Shown: positions 2-22,977 of the stretch, one piece after another
Numbering within the stretch: the first letter of the stretch is position 1
Layout of the letters: every line of letters begins with the position of its first letter
NCBI GenBank assembly: GCA_016930835.1
Contig: JAFGGA010000078.1
Coordinates: forward strand, 1-36,211
Length of the DNA stretch: 36,211 nt
Origin: Deltaproteobacteria bacterium
GTDB lineage: Bacteria > Desulfobacterota > DSM-4660 > Desulfatiglandales > HGW-15
Reading direction: 5' to 3'
Notes under the pieces: generated by a model
What the model was told of the DNA's origin: nothing
The model's database searches: none
The model's input: only the letters and a program-made list of their open reading frames with translations
Position numbers and translations under genes: made by a program

Positions 2-634
2 AATATCGGCGGCGCCCGGAAGGGTGTCGAGGATATGGGCGTGCTGGGGAATCCCATGAAATATTCCATGGTCATGGCCGAAAATGAGGAAGACAGCCCC
101 TGGGAGCCCCTGCATGTGGAATACGGTTTTGAGAGATCCGACAGTACCTTGACCGTATTTTTCCCCAACAGCTACTCCCAATTCTGGCACTACAGCTCAG
201 ATGATAAAGGCATTCTGCGAACCATCACCAGCAACGCCCAGCCCGGAAGGGGAGGACTCTGCTGCCTGATGATAACACCCGAGCACGCCAGGACCCTTGC
301 CGAGAACAACTGGACAAAGCAGGAGATAAGGGAACACATTGCGGAATACGCGCGTGTACCGGCCTATCTTCATCAGGACTTCTGGGGCTCGTTTTTCCCC
401 GTAAAAAAGCGGCCCCCGGTCAACCGGGAAGATCCAATGGGGATCTTTAAGGCCCACCTGATCAGGATTGTTGTCATGGGTGGACATGGCGCCTTCATAG
501 GCATGGCGGTGGGAGGCGGATCAAACCTATCCAAAAAGGTGGATTTTGTCACTAAAAAGGTTGATCTGCCTAAAAACTGGGACAGGCTTGTGGCTAAATA
601 TAAAAGCCTGGTTCCTGTCTATGTTAGGGGGTAG
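2..634 (+). CDS. UGSC-type protein, C-terminal domain (5' end outside window)
   Basis: The reading frame is open from the first bases of the window, so the gene begins upstream and only about 210 C-terminal residues are visible. They align with the C-terminal domain of the two UGSC-family proteins downstream. The shared features are an N-I-G-G-A-R stretch, then G-N-P-M-K-Y...A-E-N-E-E-D-S-P-W, corresponding to G-Y-P-M-S-W...A-E-D-E-E in the gene at 2583, then a GF turn, and a final V-D-L-P-K-N-W-D-R-L motif matching LPANWDEL. It is therefore a third paralog, or a stand-alone version of that domain. Whether it carries its own selenocysteine cannot be seen. The rhodanese gene follows after 52 nt on the same strand. 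The function of the domain is not known to me. Confidence 0.8.
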   Translation, partial: NIGGARKGVEDMGVLGNPMKYSMVMAENEEDSPWEPLHVEYGFERSDSTLTVFFPNSYSQFWHYSSDDKGILRTITSNAQPGRGGLCCLMITPEHARTLAENNWTKQEIREHIAEYARVPAYLHQDFWGSFFPVKKRPPVNREDPMGIFKAHLIRIVVMGGHGAFIGMAVGGGSNLSKKVDFVTKKVDLPKNWDRLVAKYKSLVPVYVRG

Positions 635-686: not shown

Positions 687-1112
687 ATGGAAATTTTCAG
701 AAAAACTACTGTTATTCATTTATTAATATGTATTCAGGTTTTTGGACTGGCTTCTCATTCTTTTAGTGCGGATGTTCAACTTCCCCGTATCACGATAGAA
801 GGATTAAAAAACCTGATGGATAACGGGGCTGATATTGTGATTATAGATACCCAGCCCAAAAAATTGTATGAAATGGGCGGGCATATCAAAGGCGCTGTTT
901 CTCTTCCCTGGGCAAAGGAAATAGATTACGCCGATGTTCGAAAATTGCCTTCGGACAAACCACTCATCCTATACTGCGATTGCGGTCCAGGAGAAGAAGC
1001 CAGCAACAATGTCGGTAACCAGCTGATGGAATTGGGGTTTAAGAATGTCAAAATTTTGGCTGATCCATCCATCAGGGGATGGAAAGAAAAAGGTTATCCC
1101 ATAGAAAAGTAA
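687..1112 (+). CDS. Exported single-domain rhodanese-like protein
   Basis: A 141-residue protein with an N-terminal signal peptide (hydrophobic residues about 10-25, cleavage near SFSA-D) and one rhodanese domain from about residue 33. The substrate loop follows the strand L-I-L-Y-C and reads C-D-C-G-P-G-E-E-A-S, so a catalytic-type Cys is present. The loop is of the two-cysteine kind rather than classical CRxGxR. Single-domain rhodaneses carry sulfane sulfur as a persulfide; an exported one would act in the periplasm. The start is fixed by a GGGAG ribosome site 6 nt upstream. The cytochrome gene follows after 6 nt, so the two are probably co-transcribed. The sulfur donor and acceptor are unknown. 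Confidence 0.85.
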   Translation: MEIFRKTTVIHLLICIQVFGLASHSFSADVQLPRITIEGLKNLMDNGADIVIIDTQPKKLYEMGGHIKGAVSLPWAKEIDYADVRKLPSDKPLILYCDCGPGEEASNNVGNQLMELGFKNVKILADPSIRGWKEKGYPIEK

Positions 1113-1118
1113 GTTGTC

Positions 1119-1619
1119 ATGCAAAAGCGAAAGAACTATATGAGGCCGGTCATGCAATCCGGAAAGGCTGTTAAGTTATGTATTCTCTTATGGTTCCTTT
1201 TCTGGATTCCATACCTTTCAGGTAAAGATTCACTCGCTGAAATCTACGGTTGTTTTGGAGGTTGGAAAGCCTGTGCTGAATGCCATGATACGGAAACCAA
1301 AGGATGGCAAAAGACGAGACATGCCGTTGCGTTTGAAAGCCTTAAGAAATCAGGGCAACAGGATCTGCCTGATTGTATTCAGTGTCATGTTGTCGGGTAT
1401 GATAAATATGGCGGGTTTCTGGATCATGAATTGACCCCCGAACTTGCAGGTGTTCAATGCGAGAACTGCCATGGCCCCGATAAGGAACACATTCAGAACC
1501 CTGACGATGGTAAGATAATAGCCGTTCCTGAAATGGAACTATGCCGTAAATGTCATACTGCCATTCAGGATCCAGGATTTGACTATGCGGAAAAGGTAAA
1601 ATTTTCACATGGAGATTAA
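1119..1619 (+). CDS. Small tetrahaem cytochrome c (cytochrome c-554 type)
   Basis: A 166-residue protein with a basic N-terminus, one hydrophobic export segment (about residues 18-34) and four CxxCH haem c sites: CAECH (52-56), CIQCH (86-90), CENCH (114-118) and CRKCH (142-146). Additional His residues can serve as distal ligands. The segment ELAGVQCENCHGP is typical of the cytochrome c-554/multihaem family of anaerobic electron carriers. It is probably periplasmic and shuttles electrons between a quinol-linked donor and neighbouring redox proteins. It lies 6 nt after the rhodanese gene and 32 nt before the DUF1573 selenoprotein gene, which suggests it supplies or removes electrons for them. 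The start codon is uncertain: the ribosome site is weak and a second ATG lies at 1140. Confidence 0.88.
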   Translation: MQKRKNYMRPVMQSGKAVKLCILLWFLFWIPYLSGKDSLAEIYGCFGGWKACAECHDTETKGWQKTRHAVAFESLKKSGQQDLPDCIQCHVVGYDKYGGFLDHELTPELAGVQCENCHGPDKEHIQNPDDGKIIAVPEMELCRKCHTAIQDPGFDYAEKVKFSHGD

Positions 1620-1651: not shown

Positions 1652-2413
1652 ATGTATGGAAAGCGCAAAATAAAAAGAGCATATAAAAACCTGATCAAAA
1701 TTGGTTTATTTTTTATCCTCCTGTTAAATGGTCATATCATCGCGGCGGGTGCTGGCGCGAAGATCGAGGTTGATAAATCCATTTTTGATTTCAATGAAAT
1801 AGATGAAGGTCCCCCGGCTGTTGCCTACGCACATCTGAAGAATACCGGCGATTTCGATGTAACAATCGAAGAGGTAATCTCAACATGAGCTTGTACCCAT
1901 CCGGTGCTTGGAAAGCGCTTATTGAAATCCGAAGAAGAAACAATATTAAAAATTATTTATCAAACATTGAACAGACCGGGACCATTTGAAAAAAGGGTTT
2001 TCCTGTTCACCAACATTCCCGATCAAAAGGAGATTACCATTACGATTAAAGGGATGGTCAGAGAGGCGCCTGTACCGAAGATAAGGGTTGAGCCGCGGAA
2101 GTTAAGACTGGGCTTAATAAATACAAATTCGGTCAGTAACCTGAGCTGTCGAATCACGAATGAAGGGCGAGAACCCCTAACGATAACTAAGATTCATATG
2201 ATCGAAGGAGATACGGTATATTTTGATGGAAAAAAACAAGGCAACCTTGTAATCAAGCCAAAGGAATCCACTAGCATAAAAATTGATTTTACTCCCATGA
2301 CGGAAGGGCCTTTTACACGAGTAATCTTTTTTGAAACCAATGCTAAGAATGCACGGAACGGACGTTACGCAATCATGGTCATTGGTGAAGCATTGAAGGA
2401 AGGATCTTGGTAG
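1652..2413 (+). CDS. DUF1573-domain selenoprotein with Sec-Ala-Cys motif (UGA at 1886-1888)
   Basis: A 253-residue exported protein if the in-frame TGA at 1886-1888 is read as selenocysteine (residue 79); otherwise two abutting ORFs in the same frame. Residues about 13-32 form a signal peptide. The following part matches DUF1573: an NTG...V-T-I strand, the motif position, then G-P-F-E-K-R-V-F-L-F-T-N and I-T-I-K-G. DUF1573 proteins normally carry Cys-Gly-Cys-Thr here; this one reads Sec-Ala-Cys-Thr, so the UGA falls exactly on the conserved first cysteine. A second beta-sandwich repeat occupies about residues 120-253. A hairpin at 1903-1919 sits where a bacterial SECIS would. The ATG at 1652 was chosen over the TTG at 1649. 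Decay by a point mutation is possible but unlikely, since the frame stays open and conserved and two other recoded UGAs lie nearby. Confidence 0.8.
1903..1919 (+). promoter_or_regulatory. Candidate bacterial SECIS hairpin in the DUF1573 gene
   Basis: A 7-bp stem (G-U, G-C, U-G, G-C, C-G, U-A, U-A) encloses GGA, or UGGAA if the closing U-A pair is open. The loop starts 21 nt after the UGA at 1886-1888 and carries G in its first two bases, as bacterial SelB-binding hairpins usually do. The stem is weaker than in the two UGSC genes and an alternative fold (1889-1916) exists, so this is the least certain of the three. Confidence 0.55.
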
Positions 2414-2582: not shown

Positions 2583-4469
2583 ATGAAAAGAAAAAACACT
2601 TTTATGGTTGGATGCCTGATATTTCTATTCTTACTATCTTCCATTTCCTTGGTGGCTTCACCTCAAAAAGAAGTTTCCTTGGAGGTGGTGAAACCCTATG
2701 GTCAGTCAACTGTTCCGATGATAAAAATAGCCTCTCGCCTGGATACCCTGGAGGGCAAGAAGATTGCTGTTGTAGGCAACAGCTTTATGGCCGATGTAAC
2801 ACATCCCGAAATCAAAAACCTGATCCTTAAGAACTACCCCACGGCAACAGTATATTTGCAGCAAGAGGTGGGCTCCGCTGAGCATTATCCGGCGCCCGGC
2901 ACTACAAATGAGAGAGTAAAGGCATTTCAGAAGAAGCTCAAGGATTTGAAGGTGGATGCCGTAATAAGTGGGAATGGCGGCTGAGGTGTATGCACTCCTG
3001 GAGAGACGGGATCTCTCATAGCCGCTGAGTACATTGGCATTCCTGCCGTTACGGTTGCAGGACCGGGTTTTATTGAAACAGTTTATTCTACGGGCATAAA
3101 TAACGGTATTCCTGCGCCGCGAGCCGCCGAGTATCCCGGTGCTTTTGCGTCCCACACAAAAGATGAGTTGATCATGAATACGGGAAAGGTGGTTTGGCCC
3201 CAGATCGTCGAGGCATTGACGAAACCGATAACAAAAGAAGAAATCGCCGAAAAAACAGGAAAATACAGAGAGGCGCCTCAGGATCCAAGAGAGATTGTAT
3301 TCACCGGCACGATGGATGAAGTGAATCAATATTTTTCAAAGAAGCACTGGAGTGACGGGCTGCCCATCGTTCCGCCGACCATAGAAAAGGTTAACGAATT
3401 TCTCAAATATACAGACCACCCCTGGGATGAGACCATAGCCGTGCTCCAGGCCGCATATCGCGACACGAAGGTTTGGCATATCGCGGTCAATGGGGTGATG
3501 GCCGGATGCCCGCCGGAGTACATGCCGCTACTGATAGCATACATAGAAGCCATACCCGACAAAAAGGTCAGGATGAATTATGACAGTACCCATGGGTGGA
3601 TTCCCTATGCTTGGATAAACGGGCCTGTCGCAAGGCAATTGGGCATCGACTGCGGGCAGGGGATGATTACCGAGCCGCAAAACATGGTTCTTGGCCGATT
3701 TCTTAGCCTGGCGGTACAGAATCTTTCCGGCTATTATATAAAAGAAAACAGGATGGGAACCTTTGGTTACCCCATGTCCTGGGCGTTTGCGGAGGATGAA
3801 GAGGCGTGCCGCAAGATCGGCTGGGATCCCTACCATGTACAAAAGGGTTTTGATCTGAATCAGAGCACTTTGACCGCGAGCACCAGCCTTGTATATGGCA
3901 ACAATCTTATCCCCGCCACCGACGATCCTCAGAAGATTATGGAACTTATAGCCTGGGATTTTGTCGAGAAACAGAAGTTTGCCGTCGGTAGTTGCTTTCC
4001 AAGGTTTAATCAGAACTTTAGAACTCTTATGGTTACTGAGTATATAGCTCGTGATCTTGCCTGGAAATATAAAACAAAGGAAGCCTTGGAAACGGATTTA
4101 ATGGCGACCGCAAGGAGAACCGTGCATGAGCGCGCCTTTGCCAGTTACTACGCGCATCCCGGTAGCCGGCCGCCTTATCCATTTCCACAGCACGTACAAA
4201 GGACCATAAAAGATACGCTTGAGCAGGCAGAGAAGACGAAACTACCACCCTGGTACCCGGATGATTTTCCAAGTGAAGTATGGACCGTCCCGGTTATTTG
4301 GCACAAAGGCGACACGGCGATCGTGGTCACCGGGGACCGGTCTAGGAATAAATCGCTGACCTTAAACGGCGCCGGTCACGCCACCGTAGAGATAAAGCTG
4401 CCGGCAAACTGGGATGAACTCATGGAGAAAGCAGGATATCGCCCGCTGAAGGAGTTTTTCCTTAAATAG
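2583..4469 (+). CDS. UGSC-family selenoprotein 1 (UGA at 2982-2984 = Sec134)
   Basis: Read through the in-frame TGA, this is one 628-residue exported protein. Residues 1-27 form a signal peptide. Residues about 45-225 are the UGSC (seleno)protein domain: L-D-T-L-E-G-K-K-I-A-V-V-G-N, then D-A-V-I-S-G-N-G-G-Sec-G-V-C-T, then G-I-P-A-V-T-V. The redox motif is Sec-Gly-Val-Cys. Residues about 237-628 are a second conserved domain: W-S-D-G-L-P-I-V-P-P-T, V-N-G-V-M-A-G-C, I-N-G-P-V-A-R-Q-L-G-I and a terminal LPANWDEL. The substrate is unknown; UGSC proteins are presumed thiol-based redox enzymes. The start at 2583 is chosen because AGGAG lies 10 nt upstream. Normal homologous sequence on both sides of the UGA argues against a pseudogene. 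Confidence 0.9.
2977..3025 (+). promoter_or_regulatory. Candidate SECIS of UGSC selenoprotein 1
   Basis: Immediately after the UGA (2982-2984), GAGAGA (3001-3006) pairs perfectly with TCTCTC (3012-3017) around the loop CGGGA, which starts 22 nt after the codon. An outer stem, GCGGCT (2977-2982) with AGCCGC (3020-3025), closes the structure and includes the U of the UGA. Position and a G-bearing apical loop fit bacterial SelB-binding elements. Confidence 0.75.
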
Positions 4470-4785: not shown

Positions 4786-6706
4786 ATGATTATGATGGAT
4801 ATGTTCCAACAATTGTTAAATATGTCTGATGGAACAGCTATTTGCATGGTCGCCTGTTTTGTCGTGGTGATTTTATTTGCTTTCTGCAGCCCGCCTGATA
4901 CGGCGACATCGAAGCCTCCTGCCGAGCCCGCTTACAGGGTTGTGAGCCCCATCGGGGAGAGCATTGTCGAGATGACGACCATGGCTCCCAGGCTGGATAC
5001 GCTCGCCGGCAAAACAGTCTGCATGGTGTGGAACAACGCGTTCAAGGCTGATGTGACCCTCCCCGCCATCGGGGAGGCACTGAAAAACCAATACCCAAGC
5101 CTCAAGATTGTTCCGTATACCGATATGCCTGATGCCTTTCTGCCCGAGCATCACGGAGCTCCCGGAAAAGAATCTGAGGTCCTGCAAGCGGTTTTCAAGG
5201 AAAAGGGATGCAATGCAGTAATAAGCGGGAATGGTGGTTGAGGCATCTGCACACCGCGTGCGGGTCACGCGGTAGTAGTGGCTGAGCAATCCGGCATTCC
5301 CGGCGCAGTGGTGACCAATCCCGGTTTCAATGAACAGGCGCGCAATTCGGCCAAGGACCATGGCATACCATCCCTCCAGGTCGCCCTGTATCCGGACCCA
5401 TTTGACCTCGAAACGGATGCTCAACTGCAGGAAAAGTCCGCTAAGATCGTTGTTCCTCAGATCATCGACGCACTGACCAAACCAATACCCGCAACGAAAG
5501 ATACCGCTGAGAAAAGGGACGGTAGGGAGATCATGTTCACCGGCACCGTTGATCAGGTCAATCGATACTTCACCGTTAGGGCGTGGAGCGACGGGATGTC
5601 CGTAACCCCGCCGACAACGGAGAAGGTCGAGGCGTTTCTGAAATATACTGATTATCCGCCCGATCAGGAGATAGCGGTGCTTCCGGTCGCGAATCTGAAG
5701 GCTACACTATGGAACATTGCCGTCAATGGCGTGATGGCCGGTTGCCGTTCCGAGCACATGCCTATACTGATTTCGGCGGTTCAGGCCATCGCCGATCCTG
5801 CTTTCAGTTACCGGAACAGCGGTGGCAGCACACATTCTTTCATGAACTTCTTCTGGGTCAATGGGCCGATCGCGAGACAGCTCGGCATCGACCACGGACA
5901 GGGGCTCATTGCGAATCCGGTCAACAGTGTCATCGGCCGGGCCATGAGCCTTATCGGGAGAAACATCGCAGGCCTCAGGATCAAGGAAACCCAGATGGGC
6001 AGTTTCGGGAAGCAACTATCGTGGGTCCTAGCGGAAGATGAAGAGGCGATGATCAAGCTGGGATGGGAACCATACCATATGGATAAAGGGTTTGCAAAGA
6101 ACGCGAACGCCCTGTCCGCGGGGTACAGCACCTTATGGGGCCGCAATCTCATATCCCCTCGACGTCCGATCCGAAGATCCTCATGCAGATCATGGCCTAC
6201 GGGATCGCCACCACGGAAGCCTTTGCCAGCGGGTTCACGGGTCAGAGTCGTCGATACATGCTTGTGGGGCCCGCTGTAGCCAAAATTCTCGCTGATGGGG
6301 GCTATACAAAAAAGAGCCTTAAGAAAGACCTCATTGCAAATGCGCGAAAAATCACCCATGAGGCGGTTTTCTCAAAGGTATATGGCTCGTTTGGCGAGGT
6401 ATACGATTCCTTCGAAGTCGAGCTTGAAAAAGCCCTGAGCAATAAGGATACAGAGAAGGGGAGGCTGCCGCCTCTTGGTACCCCAGATTCCCTGGTTGGG
6501 AAGAGATCGAAACGACGCTGGCCTTAAATGCGGTTGAATTCATCATATGCGGAGACCCGGCAAGAAACAAGGTGCAGACACTGTCGGGCGGCCGCGGCTT
6601 CGCTATCAAGGAAATAGAGCTGCCCGCAAATTGGGATGACCTCATGGAGAAAGCAGGATATCGTCCGTTGCAGAAGTTTTTTTTAAGTAGCGGTGGGTCA
6701 CGTTGA
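4786..6706 (+). pseudogene. UGSC-family selenoprotein 2 (UGA at 5239-5241), frameshifted paralog
   Basis: A tandem paralog of the gene at 2583 with the same order: a hydrophobic N-terminal export segment, the UGSC domain with N-G-G-Sec-G-I-C-T (UGA 5239-5241, Sec152), then the C-terminal domain with W-S-D-G-M-S-V-T-P-P-T and V-N-G-V-M-A-G-C. The frame breaks near 6154 (after N-L-I) and again near 6474 (after L-P-P), each equivalent to a 1-nt deletion. A third likely 1-nt loss lies in the T8 run at 6677-6684, because the paralog ends Phe-Phe-Leu-Lys-stop and AAGTAG is out of frame here. The third frame runs to TGA at 6704-6706. Everything else is well conserved, so this is either a recent pseudogene or the result of sequencing errors at homopolymers. 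Before the frameshifts the gene looks fully functional, SECIS included. Confidence 0.85.
5253..5273 (+). promoter_or_regulatory. Candidate SECIS of UGSC selenoprotein 2
   Basis: A perfect 8-bp stem, ACCGCGTG (5253-5260) with CACGCGGT (5266-5273), encloses CGGGT. The loop begins 19 nt after the UGA. The loop core CGGG is the same as in paralog 1 while the stem bases differ completely yet still pair. That compensatory pattern supports a selected RNA element. Confidence 0.8.
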
Positions 6707-12365: not shown

Positions 12366-13178
12366 TTAAAGCCGCAGGTATGATCTTACCAAATGCCGCC
12401 GGGAAAAATGACCGAGGGTGATCCATTCTATCGGCATGGGGGCGCCGAATAGTTTCTTTGCGATGTCCTTTTCTTTCCAGCCTTTCTGGTGAAGCACCAA
12501 GGCCTGTTCACCCATGCTTTCCAAATAGATGATCTTGTCTTGCATGTCTTCTTTGGGTTTATCGGGTATGCGGGCACTGGCCGGAAAGAGGCTATTGAAA
12601 GGTAGTGTGACGATTTTTTTTAGTGAAGCGATAATCTGCCAGATTTCATAATCTTTTCGTAATGCCCGATCCTTGCCACCGACATACAGATCCCCCGTAA
12701 AAAGCCAGCCTTGGGATGATTCATAAAGACAGATGTGATCAGGGCTGTGACCAGGCGTGTAAATGGCTTGGAACCGATAGTGCGCTGTTCTAATGACATC
12801 ACCGTCTTGTATGGGTTTCGTTTGTGACGCGTCCGGCCATCCCCACATGATTTTCCTGTAGGGCTGTAATGGTTGGGTATTTCGTGGATCGGCCAGAATG
12901 GGAATGGCCAACGGGTGTGTTCGTATCTCCAACCCATGAATATTTTTTTGCAACAAATGGTTTGCCCCGACATGATCCTCGTGGCTGTGGGTATTGACAA
13001 TACAGGAAAGAGGTTTGCCATTGAGTGCATTGACAAATTCATGGGCCGTGTGGGCGCATCCCGAATCGATCAAGAGTCCATCGACATAATAGGCTGCCGT
13101 CCAATATCGGCCGCGTCCGGCAACGGTTCGGGCCAGATCGAATCGGGTGACGGGGTTGTAGTGTGTGATTTTCAGCAT
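12366..13178 (-). CDS. MBL-fold metallo-hydrolase
   Basis: A 270-residue cytoplasmic protein of the metallo-beta-lactamase superfamily. The metal-binding motif H-S-H-E-D-H is at residues 64-69 and is preceded by a strand ending L-I-D-S-G. A second His is in T-P-G-H-S-P-D-H-I, a metal-ligand Asp in F-T-G-D-L-Y-V-G, and a final His in T-L-G-H-F-S near the C-terminus. This is the glyoxalase-II-like subgroup that hydrolyses thioesters or related bonds, but the substrate cannot be assigned. A degraded partial copy lies at 6885-7256. The neighbouring direct repeats and MITE suggest duplication in this region. Confidence 0.88.
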   Translation of the reverse strand: MLKITHYNPVTRFDLARTVAGRGRYWTAAYYVDGLLIDSGCAHTAHEFVNALNGKPLSCIVNTHSHEDHVGANHLLQKNIHGLEIRTHPLAIPILADPRNTQPLQPYRKIMWGWPDASQTKPIQDGDVIRTAHYRFQAIYTPGHSPDHICLYESSQGWLFTGDLYVGGKDRALRKDYEIWQIIASLKKIVTLPFNSLFPASARIPDKPKEDMQDKIIYLESMGEQALVLHQKGWKEKDIAKKLFGAPMPIEWITLGHFSRRHLVRSYLRL

Positions 13179-13307
13179 AAAGTTTCACCACTGAAACACG
13201 AGAAGCATGGAATTTCATATTATTTCTTGTGGGACTATGCGTTGTCAAGCTCTTCGGATATCTTCTTTTCCACATCCATCTCAGTATCAGGGACACTTGT
13301 TGCCCAG

Positions 13308-13475
13308 AAGATCCATCCTTATACTGAATTGGTACGGTATATTCACTTAAATCCATTAAGGACAAAGGTGGGTGAAAACTATTCAAGCCCGGGTAGAGAT
13401 AAATATTACGGACATGGCGTGATTCTCTGGAACAAAAGAAATGATTGGCAGCGGAATATCCTAAGGGGAACTTGA
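13308..13475 (+). pseudogene. Remnant of a REP-associated (Y1/IS200-like) transposase
   Basis: About 50 residues with E-L-V-R-Y-I-H-L-N-P-L-R-T-K-V, the characteristic motif of REP-associated tyrosine transposases, followed by unrelated C-terminal sequence. The N-terminal catalytic HUH part is missing and no start with a ribosome site is visible. It is a dead fragment, but it shows that this transposase class has been in the genome; such enzymes can mobilise small palindromic elements. Confidence 0.6.
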
Positions 13476-18122: not shown

Positions 18123-19565
18123 TTACACCAATACGCCTCTGCTTATGGCCAATAGATCATTGACCACTGTTTCATAGTCCATTTTTTTACCTAGATCTTT
18201 TTCCCTCTCCGTTATTTTTTCTTTGTGAAAGGCCAGTATCTCTTTGGTGAAAGGTAGATTGCCGTGGTTCAGGTATCGAACCGCGCCATGCTTGTCCTTA
18301 ATACCCATGACATGACAGGGCACCAATGGGCTTGTCGCGAAGGGATGGTCCAGAATCCCTGATTGAATAGCCTGGATTAAACCCACAGCGACATCGCCGT
18401 CACCCAATTCAATGACCCGGTCCAAAATCATCCGCGTCTCCATCTCGGACATTTGGGATTCGATCTCGAGGTTTTTCGGATCGACCTGAATGGCTTGACC
18501 TTTAAAAAAATCAACGATTACCTTGGCCGAGCGAAATGTGATGGCGATATCTTCCTTGGTCGGTATGGTCATGGCCTCGGATACGGTACGAATATCGTTT
18601 ATCTGAGCACCGCATAGTTTGGCAACAATGGAGTTAAAAGCGATGGCGGCAAAGGCCGAACCCAGTTCCACAGGATACCCCACCAGTGATAGGCCGGTTG
18701 TAAGAATGGTGACAACATCCTTGTGGCCGAATCGGTCAAGATACTCCCGTGAGAGTTTCTGTAGGGTACGCGCGCTTCCAACATCTTGGGCCAGATTGCC
18801 TTGCGCCGTGAAATGCAACATAACATGCTTGACACCTTGCTCGGCCATCATCAGCATTTGTGTCAACAAGGCGGTCATGACCAAACTGGACGGAATTCCT
18901 CCGCCGTACATGCCCTGGCAGGCCGGGGTAATGGGAACCCCGTGTTCTTCATAATAGCCGATTAGCCGATGAACATATTGGTGATTTCTAAGAACCGTTT
19001 CGGGCGGCAACTTGCTGTTCATGTTCCAAAAATTGTATAACCCGTCACCTGAACAGCCCGTATGGCCCCCGGCCAAGCTGATTTCATCAATTAACCGCGG
19101 ATCAGCTGCCCCGTATCGTGTCCCTACTGGTAGGTCCACGGACTCAATAATCTTGCGGATTCCATTTACCCCATGATGCACCACTGGTAAACCGTTTAGG
19201 CGAGATTGACCGGTCTCCATGCTTTCCCGCAGTCCTTTTTCCACCACGTCATATTTATGGACACGCGTAAAGCTATCCACCGAAGTCGCCAGCAATTCAG
19301 CCTGTCCCTCATCCTGGACATATCGAAGCAGTTCGATTTGTTGTTCCAGCGTGGTCTTACCCATGCCAGTGATGGCAAAGGTCTCAGACCGATTTCTGGG
19401 ATCAAGCATCTTTTTTGCCCATACCTTATGGGGGGGCAGATTTTTATGGAACGTAATGGCTTCGTCCAGGTCTACTTCTTTGCCGGTGGGCCATTCGGAA
19501 AGAACCTGTTCGCGCTCCTGAAAAAACACATCTTCCTCTATTTTTTTATTTCGAATATCAATCAT
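18123..19565 (-). CDS. Glutamate mutase epsilon-like subunit, paralog 1 (altered active site)
   Basis: A 480-residue TIM-barrel protein clearly homologous along its length to the epsilon (catalytic) subunit of B12-dependent glutamate (methylaspartate) mutase: W-P-T-G-K-E-V-D-L near the start, I-E-L-L-R-Y-V-Q-D-E-G, L-A-G-G-H-T, A-E-Q-G-V-K-H-V, and R-Y-L-N-H-G-N-L-P-F-T-K-E-I near the end. By my recollection of the clostridial enzyme, Arg100 and Arg149 are kept (R101, R150). Arg66 is Gly67, Glu171 (amino-group ligand) is Ser172, Tyr177 is Asn178 and Tyr181 is Met182. The fold and B12 chemistry are probably retained but the substrate is probably not glutamate. It lies 176 nt after the sigma subunit gene; AAGGAAAT precedes the ATG. 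Confidence 0.85.
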   Translation of the reverse strand: MIDIRNKKIEEDVFFQEREQVLSEWPTGKEVDLDEAITFHKNLPPHKVWAKKMLDPRNRSETFAITGMGKTTLEQQIELLRYVQDEGQAELLATSVDSFTRVHKYDVVEKGLRESMETGQSRLNGLPVVHHGVNGIRKIIESVDLPVGTRYGAADPRLIDEISLAGGHTGCSGDGLYNFWNMNSKLPPETVLRNHQYVHRLIGYYEEHGVPITPACQGMYGGGIPSSLVMTALLTQMLMMAEQGVKHVMLHFTAQGNLAQDVGSARTLQKLSREYLDRFGHKDVVTILTTGLSLVGYPVELGSAFAAIAFNSIVAKLCGAQINDIRTVSEAMTIPTKEDIAITFRSAKVIVDFFKGQAIQVDPKNLEIESQMSEMETRMILDRVIELGDGDVAVGLIQAIQSGILDHPFATSPLVPCHVMGIKDKHGAVRYLNHGNLPFTKEILAFHKEKITEREKDLGKKMDYETVVNDLLAISRGVLV

Positions 19566-19741
19566 ATTATTTCCTTTCCCTGAATTTAGCTTTTCGACAT
19601 TTCCCGGCGATAAAGACGAATCGAGGTATCTTTATATAGAAAACCAGGCCGGGAGCCTTTGCTACCCGAGGCAATCTTGGAATGCATAAAAATAAGGATG
19701 CCATGAATCGATGGGCATGGTTTCAATGCAAAAATGTTCAA

Positions 19742-20173
19742 TTACTTTTTTGATGCTAAATCCGCTTCCAAATCCTTTATGATTTGGGGAGGCAATACGC
19801 CAGGGGGATATACGCGGTTGAAGCCCATATCCATGAAGGTCTTTTCCACATCCTCCCATGCGGTTTTTCCGATCATCAATTGGCCTCCCAGATACAGGCG
19901 GATATCGTTTAAGCCCGCCTCAATGCATTTCTCCCGAAGCCCGGGGGCCAGGATCTGGGCGTGCCCGCTTAGGGAAGAAACCAGAATCGCATCGGCATTG
20001 GTCTCGGTTGCGGCATCGATAAATTCTTCCTGTGATACCTGTACGCCGAGTGCAACGACTTTAAAGCCTGCCTCACGCAGGGCGTGCTCTAAAATCCGAA
20101 TGCCAACCACATGCACATCATCGCCGATAACGCCTGTCACCATTGTGCCTTTTGTTTCATTTTCATCTGTCAT
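19742..20173 (-). CDS. B12-binding sigma subunit of a glutamate mutase-type enzyme
   Basis: A 143-residue Rossmann-like cobalamin-binding protein. The base-off/His-on motif D-x-H-x-x-G is present as D19-V-H21-V-V-G24, followed by L-G-V-Q-V-S-Q-E-E-F, S-S-L-S-G-H and Y-L-G-G-Q-L, all typical of GlmS/MutS. It carries adenosylcobalamin into the active site of an epsilon subunit. It lies between two epsilon-like genes, so one B12 carrier may serve both, or the three may form a heteromeric enzyme. GGAGG lies 8 nt before the ATG. No reactivating-factor gene (GlmL) is present in the window. Confidence 0.9.
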   Translation of the reverse strand: MTDENETKGTMVTGVIGDDVHVVGIRILEHALREAGFKVVALGVQVSQEEFIDAATETNADAILVSSLSGHAQILAPGLREKCIEAGLNDIRLYLGGQLMIGKTAWEDVEKTFMDMGFNRVYPPGVLPPQIIKDLEADLASKK

Positions 20174-20362
20174 GAAATATTCCTCCGAGTGAAAAATGGG
20201 TTAAATAATTTGTTCATCATTAAGGATCATCTTCTCATAAATCACCCTTCCCCGCGCGGGGGGAGTTAGGGGCAGGGGATTTGGGGTATTTCAGGATGGA
20301 CACTGCTGAATGGAAGATGATTTAAAACATGTCAAATAATGATCTCCACAAAACCGACTTCA

Positions 20363-21808
20363 CTATTTCGCCACCAAGTCCCCTTGGCTGATGGAAAAAA
20401 GATCCTGCACCACGGATCCATAATCCACCGGCCGGCCCTGCGCTTTTTCCCTCTGGGCTATCTTTTCCTGGTTGTATGAAATGATCTCATTCGTAAATGG
20501 AAGGTTTCCATGCTTTAGATAACGCACCGCGCCCTCATGGTCCCTTACGGCCATCACACGTCCGGCCACGTATTTGGTGGTGGCAAACGGGTTATCCAGG
20601 ACACCTGCCTCCACGGCCCGGACCATGCCCACAGCCGCATCCCCGTTTCCCATTTCCAGTGCCCGGTCCACAATGGCCCGGGTCTCCGCTTCCAACATCT
20701 TTATCTCCAGGTCCAATGTGCCAGGGTTGAGCTTCAGGTTTTGATCCTTTAATAATTGTATCACTTTTTTACCTGCCCGGATACTGGCCGCATTGCTCTC
20801 CTTGGTGGGGATGGTGATGGCCTCCTCGATGGTCTTGACGGTGGCTATTTGAGATTTGGATAACACACCCACCACCACACCCAGGCAGAGCACGGAAAAG
20901 GCCTCTGCCGGATCAGCGGGGAATTGTCCACTCCAGGGACCGGCATTGCCGGTTACGAATACGTCAGTATAACCCATGCGGTTCAGATATTCCTCCCCAA
21001 GTCTGGTGAGCACGATGTTGGCGGCCACATCCTGGATCATGTGACCCTGAAGTTGAACACTGAGGGTGATGTTTTTGGTTCCTTGCTCAGCCGCGATCAG
21101 GGCATCCAATATGGCCCCTGCGAATATCACGCTGAAAGGACACAATATGGTGAAACCACCTGCGATAGCGCTCACGATGGGCACTCCGGCCTCTTCATAG
21201 AGCCCAATGAGCCGGAACATATATTGATGATTTCGGATGGAAGTTTCAACGGGCAAATCCCTGCTATAGTGCCAAAACGACATCATGGGCGAACTGGATG
21301 TGCATGTATGTCCTCCGGCCAGGCCGATCTCAAGGATAAATCGCCAATCCGGCGCATTACCCCTTATGCTCACAGGTAAATCCAGGGCATTTATCAATTT
21401 TCGAACGGCGGCCACGCCGTGATTAACCATCGGAAATCCATTAAGATGCCATTTGCCGGTCTTCAATCCTGCCTGAAGCTCCCGCTCCGCGGCCTCAAAT
21501 CGTGAGGTTCGAGTGAAGCTATCGACCATGGACCCCAGGAGGTCGGTCCCCCCTTCATCCTGTAAATATTTTAGATACTGGATGTGTTCATCCAAGGCAG
21601 GCACACCTGAGTCGGTCCGTATTAAGATGGCTCCGGTCTCCTTTGCCCAAGACAATTTTTTGGCAAAATTCTTCTGTGGAGGCATGCTTTTATGAAATGC
21701 AAAGGCATCTTCCAGATCGACATCCTTTCCGGTAGTCCACTGTGCAAGTACCTCTTTTCGTTCCCGTTGAAATTCATCATCACTGAGCTTCTTATTTTGG
21801 ATATTCAT
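20363..21808 (-). CDS. Glutamate mutase epsilon-like subunit, paralog 2 (altered active site)
   Basis: A 481-residue homolog of the protein at 18123 and of glutamate mutase epsilon. The start at 21808 is preferred over 21814 because AGGGG then lies 6 nt upstream, and with it the residue numbers equal those of the clostridial enzyme as I recall it. Arg100, Arg149 and Tyr181 are kept, while Arg66 is Asp, Glu171 is Ser and Tyr177 is Ser. Conserved regions include L-D-E-H-I-Q-Y-L-K-Y-L-Q-D-E-G, A-E-Q-G-T-K-N-I-T and R-Y-L-K-H-G-N-L-P-F-T-N-E-I. It begins at the stop of the MFS gene and precedes the sigma gene, so the transporter probably belongs to the same pathway. Either epsilon-like protein could be catalytic; together they look like a diverged pair. 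Confidence 0.87.
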   Translation of the reverse strand: MNIQNKKLSDDEFQRERKEVLAQWTTGKDVDLEDAFAFHKSMPPQKNFAKKLSWAKETGAILIRTDSGVPALDEHIQYLKYLQDEGGTDLLGSMVDSFTRTSRFEAAERELQAGLKTGKWHLNGFPMVNHGVAAVRKLINALDLPVSIRGNAPDWRFILEIGLAGGHTCTSSSPMMSFWHYSRDLPVETSIRNHQYMFRLIGLYEEAGVPIVSAIAGGFTILCPFSVIFAGAILDALIAAEQGTKNITLSVQLQGHMIQDVAANIVLTRLGEEYLNRMGYTDVFVTGNAGPWSGQFPADPAEAFSVLCLGVVVGVLSKSQIATVKTIEEAITIPTKESNAASIRAGKKVIQLLKDQNLKLNPGTLDLEIKMLEAETRAIVDRALEMGNGDAAVGMVRAVEAGVLDNPFATTKYVAGRVMAVRDHEGAVRYLKHGNLPFTNEIISYNQEKIAQREKAQGRPVDYGSVVQDLFSISQGDLVAK

Positions 21809-21810
21809 AA

Positions 21811-22977
21811 TCATCCCCTGGTTTGTATATCTTGATATCGCATTGAGTAGATTTTAATCATGATAAATCCCACAAAAAACCCTACCCCCGCTGTGGCAAA
21901 GATCGCCGGGAATCCCAATGCCTTGCCTATTTGTCCCAAGATAATGGAACCTGCAAAGCTGCCCAGGTCTAGTGCGCCTGTAATGGTGGCCATGATCCTT
22001 GCGCGTAGGTTGGTTGGTTCATTCCGGACGGCCATGGTATTCAAGGAGGGGTAAAGCATCCCCTGTGAGGAACCGGATATTAAGCCGGCCACCAGAAGAT
22101 ACACCATGCTGTTCATAAATAAAAGGAAAATCAGTCCGAATCCGCCTACAATCAATGCATAGGGGGCCACGCGGTCTTCTCCCACCCTGTCTATGAATTT
22201 TCCGCCCACAAGGCGCAAGGCCGTTGCCGACGCGGAGTATGCGATAAAATAGGTGGAGACCAATGCAATCCCGCGACTCTGGGCAAAAAGCGAGATAAAC
22301 CCGCTGGTACTGGCAAGGCCCATGCCCAGAATGAACATCAGGACCGTGACCGTAAAGATTTTTGGTCGTTTTAACAGTGCCATGTACGATCCCGCCCCGG
22401 AACCTCTGCCCACCACATGGGATTCGGGTAAAAATAACAGTAAAAAGGCGCCGATGGCGGGAAGACCCGCTGCCGCCAAAAAGTAGGCCGAAAATCCCCA
22501 CTGATCGATGAAAAATTCGGCCATCACCGGTCCCACCGCAAAGCCTATGAGAGAGAAGGCTCCGAATATGCCGACGCCTTCATTCATGCGTTTCCCGGGA
22601 ATAATATCCATTACATAGGTAAATCCGGCTGTAAATGTGAATCCGCCGCTGATACCATGGATCATGCGGATCAAGAGAAGGGGCCAAAAAAAATCCCTCA
22701 GGGCTCCGGTAAAACCTATGCAAGACAGGGTTGTCCCGATCATGGTCAAATTGGCAAGGAAGTAGGACCGCTTCCGACCCAGACGGTCGATGATTTCGGA
22801 TATCAGGGGCCGGGAGAGCACCGATGCCAAAAAAGAAGCGCTCATAATATAGCCGATATCGACCGTTGTACCGCCCCGATCCGCAATAAATAAAGGGAAA
22901 AGGAAGAAAGCGCCGGCATTACAGGCGGTTAAAAAGCCGGCCAGGGATATGGTAAAGAATTGAGGGGTATAGAGCAT
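21811..22977 (-). CDS. MFS transporter linked to the B12 mutase genes
   Basis: A 388-residue protein with about 12 membrane segments and the MFS motif E-I-I-D-R-L-G-R-K-R-S between segments 2 and 3; a related G-K-F-I-D-R-V-G-E-D-R occurs in the second half. Its stop codon overlaps or abuts the start of the second mutase epsilon-like gene, so the two are translationally coupled. That makes it the best candidate for import of the mutase substrate or export of its product. The ribosome site (GGA) is weak. The substrate cannot be inferred from the sequence. Confidence 0.88.
   Translation of the reverse strand: MLYTPQFFTISLAGFLTACNAGAFFLFPLFIADRGGTTVDIGYIMSASFLASVLSRPLISEIIDRLGRKRSYFLANLTMIGTTLSCIGFTGALRDFFWPLLLIRMIHGISGGFTFTAGFTYVMDIIPGKRMNEGVGIFGAFSLIGFAVGPVMAEFFIDQWGFSAYFLAAAGLPAIGAFLLLFLPESHVVGRGSGAGSYMALLKRPKIFTVTVLMFILGMGLASTSGFISLFAQSRGIALVSTYFIAYSASATALRLVGGKFIDRVGEDRVAPYALIVGGFGLIFLLFMNSMVYLLVAGLISGSSQGMLYPSLNTMAVRNEPTNLRARIMATITGALDLGSFAGSIILGQIGKALGFPAIFATAGVGFFVGFIMIKIYSMRYQDIQTRG

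Follow-up and report, generated by a model that had tools for sequence, protein, structure and literature searches.

A DUF1573 protein with a probable selenocysteine, encoded beside a tetrahaem cytochrome c554-like protein

Proteins containing the DUF1573 domain are widespread. Selenocysteine-containing members, among them CAB1076174.1, have already been reported: selenoprotein lists of 2022 and 2026 include DUF1573 (PF07610), with the motif UGC, and the list entries credit these selenoproteins to the work of Zhang & Gladyshev 2007 on the Olavius symbiont (PMC9312934, PMC13188914). Likewise, NCBIfam NF041425, termed the 'OS_HP2 family (seleno)protein', is a model for the DUF1573 domain. Hence the suggestion made in the initial annotation of the locus described here, namely that a DUF1573 selenoprotein might be undescribed, does not stand. 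What looks new is a cytochrome-linked branch bearing the motif U-A-C-T, from which the Olavius-symbiont protein would be set apart by UGC, the motif that later lists give, and which was absent from the open-licence literature searched.

The window analyzed here (that is, the whole stretch of DNA under study) consists of 36,211 nucleotides from a genome assembly of a Deltaproteobacteria bacterium (GCA_016930835.1). The gene of interest has the following features:

1652-2413, forward strand: DUF1573 gene, almost certainly encoding a selenoprotein (ATG at 1652, stop codon at 2411-2413; 253 residues with Sec79)
1886-1888, forward strand: in-frame UGA, read as Sec79, the first position of U-A-C-T
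1903-1919, forward strand: SECIS-like hairpin (7-bp stem G-GUGCUU / AAGCGC-U; apical loop GGA at 1910-1912)

The sole internal stop within the frame 1652-2413 is the TGA at 1886-1888, which corresponds to residue 79 within the motif S-T-U-A-C-T and which occupies the position of the first Cys of the DUF1573 C-x-C-T motif. The Pfam DUF1573 model (PF07610) spans residues 38-136, and thus extends across the UGA (E = 9e-26; 90.2 bits versus a gathering cut-off of 26.1). Coding constraint persists past the UGA: over 160 codons the window gene and its C132 paralog share 56% amino-acid identity and differ at 49, 40 and 105 first, second and third codon positions, respectively. The encoded protein has an N-terminal signal or anchor helix (at about residues 5-33) and two Ig/PapD-like domains.

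The same codon recurs in related genes. The source genome (4.70 Mb, 95.5% complete) encodes two further DUF1573 paralogs, which are 33-49% identical to the window protein, and all three genes contain a single TGA at this codon. Orthologs from three other genomes (G062, G336 and G482) also have TGA at the Sec79 codon, and an ortholog from a fourth (G454), likewise adjoining a cytochrome gene, has Cys in this column. Within a phylum sample of 395 genomes, 165 carry DUF1573; among the 150 best DUF1573 matches listed, exactly one stop, TGA every time, occurs in 62 and none in 88 (counts made by hand from the listed rows). Of the further DUF1573 loci that were read, 57 have a TGA, and in all 57 it falls at the first Cys of C-x-C. 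The source genome moreover encodes a tRNA-Sec (selC) with a TCA anticodon, SelA (616 bits), SelB (404 bits) and SelD (374 bits), the gene for the last of which itself holds one in-frame TGA (G000:C103:21087-22016, locus L142).

Several claims of the initial annotation are thereby upheld. The UGA does coincide with the leading Cys of C-x-C-T, as both the read-through of the open reading frame and the alignment of homologs indicate, and DUF1573 sequence does continue beyond it, as the Pfam match indicates. The homolog comparison that it had called for found UGA or Cys in this column and no other residue, and all four of selA, selB, selC and selD, which it had proposed looking for, are present; together these strongly support its proposal of a selenocysteine in place of the conserved Cys. 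That the UGA at 1886-1888 encodes Sec in this protein is considered nearly certain.

Two observations concern the wider family: roughly 40% of the listed DUF1573 matches from the phylum contain a UGA (loci L074-L129), far more than the one-protein entry in the published lists suggests, and in the tree the Sec-containing proteins are intermingled with the Cys-containing ones.

The hairpin that had been noted about 15 nt downstream of the UGA is also present, its six-pair core starting 15 nt after the UGA; a stem-loop just after the UGA with a G in its apical loop is the arrangement by which bacterial selenoprotein genes are recognized. Among the six Sec genes of the subfamily to which the window gene belongs, the same seven columns pair in the same register, the apical loop GGN being located 22-24 nt past the UGA; pairing holds in 92.9% of the cells in the hairpin columns, and both sides have changed in three pairs. 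For these six genes the covariation score was matched by 1 of 500 shuffles, and slid registers fared much worse. This covariation is supporting rather than conclusive evidence for a SECIS element, because the sample is small, its six rows are related and a protein motif (LGKR) overlaps the stem. The G454 Cys ortholog has lost the hairpin: three of the six core pairs are left and the first G of the loop has become A. When the minimum free energy of the stretch after the UGA is compared with that of synonymous shuffles, the mean z is -1.29 for Sec genes (n = 64) versus -0.35 for Cys genes (n = 29; p = 6e-5, the rows not being independent), which marks the Sec stretches as the more stable relative to their recodings. 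Weighing against it, the window hairpin is only weakly better than its own synonymous shuffles (z = -0.7), single-sequence folds give z near 0, and a cruder hairpin count did not tell the two kinds of gene, Sec and Cys, apart (p = 0.17). No Rfam match was found within the window.

On a tree built from 93 domains, proteins with U-A-C-T or C-A-C-T group as a single clade with a long branch (support 100/98). The motif is U-A-C-T in all six Sec members of this subfamily and C-A-C-T in its Cys member; the latter sits within the Sec clade, so that Sec/Cys exchange has occurred inside the subfamily. Against NF041425 the window protein scores 48.8 bits and the subfamily as a whole 46-70 bits, below the curated cut-off of 100; among the nine ordinary UGC members sampled, scores are 104-141 bits for eight and 94.8 for the other, and locus L020 scores 89.8. 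The subfamily is rare, occurring in the source genome and in two others of the 395-genome sample; its members in G454 and G482 came from targeted searches.

The genes surrounding the DUF1573 gene within the window are the following:

2-634, forward strand: C-terminal part of a further UGSC-like long protein, truncated where the contig ends (with matches to the long UGSC proteins of loci L130, L132 and L144)
687-1112, forward strand: rhodanese-domain protein (LYCDC, Cys form; near NF041203 rhodanese_LYCAU; signal-like N-terminus)
1119-1619, forward strand: tetrahaem cytochrome c554-like protein (four CXXCH; signal-like N-terminus)
2583-4469, forward strand: UGSC-family selenoprotein, long form (UGA at 2982-2984, motif U-G-V-C; signal-like N-terminus)
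4786-6527, forward strand: another UGSC-family selenoprotein (in-frame UGA at 5239-5241, with the motif U-G-I-C; reading frame disrupted near 6153)

A gene for a cytochrome c554-like protein lies directly upstream in all seven subfamily genes (three in the source genome and four elsewhere), and in the C132 paralog (locus L002) the cytochrome and the DUF1573-U protein are encoded within one open frame, with a Ser/Pro-rich linker between them. In four of the seven loci a rhodanese gene precedes the cytochrome gene and UGSC selenoprotein genes flank the group. At 56 loci with ordinary UGC members, neither the cytochrome (0/56) nor a UGSC protein (0/56) was found, and one locus had a distant rhodanese match; the neighbors seen there (S41 peptidase, polysaccharide deacetylase, HAD and Rex proteins) show no link to the window cluster. 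The Sec branch, in which every member is accompanied by this one tetrahaem cytochrome and one member is fused to it, provides DUF1573 with a specific candidate partner, and this pairing would tie the C-x-C motif to periplasmic electron transfer.

Other features of the window may be recorded here. The UGAs at 2982-2984 and 5239-5241 are each followed by a clear hairpin, neither of which is stabler than shuffles. The second UGSC gene is frame-shifted, through either decay or an assembly error, since beyond about 6153, and once more at 6539-6685, its coding sequence passes into other frames (window 6135-6690). Two matches to the methylaspartate mutase E chain occur within 18123-21814, and between them lies a 143-residue open reading frame that, by eye, looks like a cobalamin-binding subunit. 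The open reading frame at 12873-13475 reads, near its end, HPYTELVRYIHLNPLRTKVGE and resembles a transposase remnant.

An AlphaFold model of the DUF1573 protein (mean pLDDT 86.5) shows a pair of Ig/PapD-like domains and puts Sec79-Ala80-Cys81 in a loop (pLDDT about 93) joining strands 70-77 and 82-85. In the model of the C132 fusion the cytochrome is predicted at a pLDDT of about 30-50, and there is no confident placement of the cytochrome and DUF1573 parts relative to each other. Fold searches returned Ig/PapD-like domains (HYDIN, VesB, CEP192, pilus chaperones and 2qsv from Porphyromonas) and gave no function for the protein.

These observations suggest the following mechanism. SelB, directed by the hairpin 15 nt past the UGA, would insert Sec at residue 79, and the product, presumably exported, would fold as two Ig/PapD-like domains. 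Sec79 and Cys81 (the latter proposed as partner from its conservation) would constitute a redox pair cycling between a selenol/thiol state and an oxidized state, probably a selenenylsulfide, and would exchange electrons with the haems of the tetrahaem cytochrome c554-like protein encoded upstream. Because the rhodanese, cytochrome, DUF1573 and UGSC proteins all start with signal-like hydrophobic stretches, the pathway is probably periplasmic; the rhodanese and the UGSC selenoproteins would be used in the same pathway, whose substrate is probably a sulfur or selenium species. A redox role for the DUF1573 protein, such as the initial annotation had envisaged, is plausible and is favored by the cytochrome linkage, and that the Sec79/Cys81 pair works with the cytochrome seems somewhat better than an even bet. 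The explanation as a whole (that is, an exported Sec-containing protein whose Sec/Cys redox pair trades electrons with the cytochrome) is assigned a probability of roughly 0.68.

Alternatively, the C-x-C motif might serve as a metal site or a haem-linked one rather than as a redox pair. In one form of this idea, Sec-Ala-Cys would be a metal or chalcogen ligand on a PapD-like scaffold, making the protein a carrier of copper, mercury or sulfane sulfur in which selenium serves binding rather than redox chemistry. CxC-type motifs do bind soft metals, and the neighboring rhodanese suggests sulfane-sulfur chemistry; nevertheless, both the linkage and the fusion to a cytochrome point to electron transfer, and the cluster showed neither a metal transporter nor a metal regulator, so that this function is regarded as unlikely. 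A second possibility is that the DUF1573-U protein helps cytochrome or haem maturation by reducing or presenting the cysteines through which the neighboring cytochrome binds haem. The thiol proteins that take part in cytochrome c maturation act in this way, periplasmic chaperones commonly have PapD-like folds, and the strict pairing with one cytochrome (7/7), together with the direct fusion, would fit; a general factor, however, would not keep to one cytochrome type, and beside the DUF1573 gene in the window no cytochrome-maturation gene was recognized, which makes such a role very improbable. Finally, a chance stop in a decayed gene or a sequencing error, either of which might be suggested by a single sequence whose frame is open but for one stop, can be rejected as having a negligible probability, given that the stop is never TAA or TAG, that the same codon is affected in three paralogs and in many genera, that coding is conserved downstream of it and that the Sec machinery is complete.

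There is a practical side as well: in genome annotation, genes of this kind are usually cut short where the UGA falls, and the presumed catalytic motif can thereby drop out of databases.

Components of the cluster can be compared with known families. The window cytochrome matches NF041198, the model for the UshA-like PCGU (seleno)protein, over its last ~115 positions; the UshA-like domain of that model is not matched within the window, DUF1573 being the partner there instead, and the cytochrome module is thus found next to more than one selenoprotein-type domain. The UGSC neighbors are Pfam members of their family (PF24696) with an in-frame UGA, fall below the cut-off of NF041046, have U-G-V-C and U-G-I-C where the family has U-G-S-C, and are proteins separate from DUF1573. 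The rhodanese scores 60.8 bits against rhodanese_LYCAU (NF041203), below the cut-off of 115, and its LYCDC motif has what we take, from the name of that family, to be Cys at the Sec position. By analogy with SoxYZ, which carries sulfur in thiosulfate oxidation, the Ig-fold DUF1573 protein might be a Sec-based carrier that, together with the rhodanese, the tetrahaem cytochrome and the UGSC selenoproteins, makes up a single periplasmic pathway that oxidizes or reduces a sulfur or selenium compound, an extension that is quite doubtful. The closest known counterparts are the DUF1573 selenoproteins of NF041425 and of the Olavius symbiont, which are like the window gene in their domain, in having Sec at the first position of C-x-C and in their downstream hairpin. 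They differ from it in that NF041425 members have the motif U-G-C, whereas the window subfamily has U-A-C-T and forms a separate clade, and in that the UGC members neighbor peptidase S41, polysaccharide deacetylase and other genes, whereas the window subfamily keeps company with cytochrome, rhodanese and UGSC genes.
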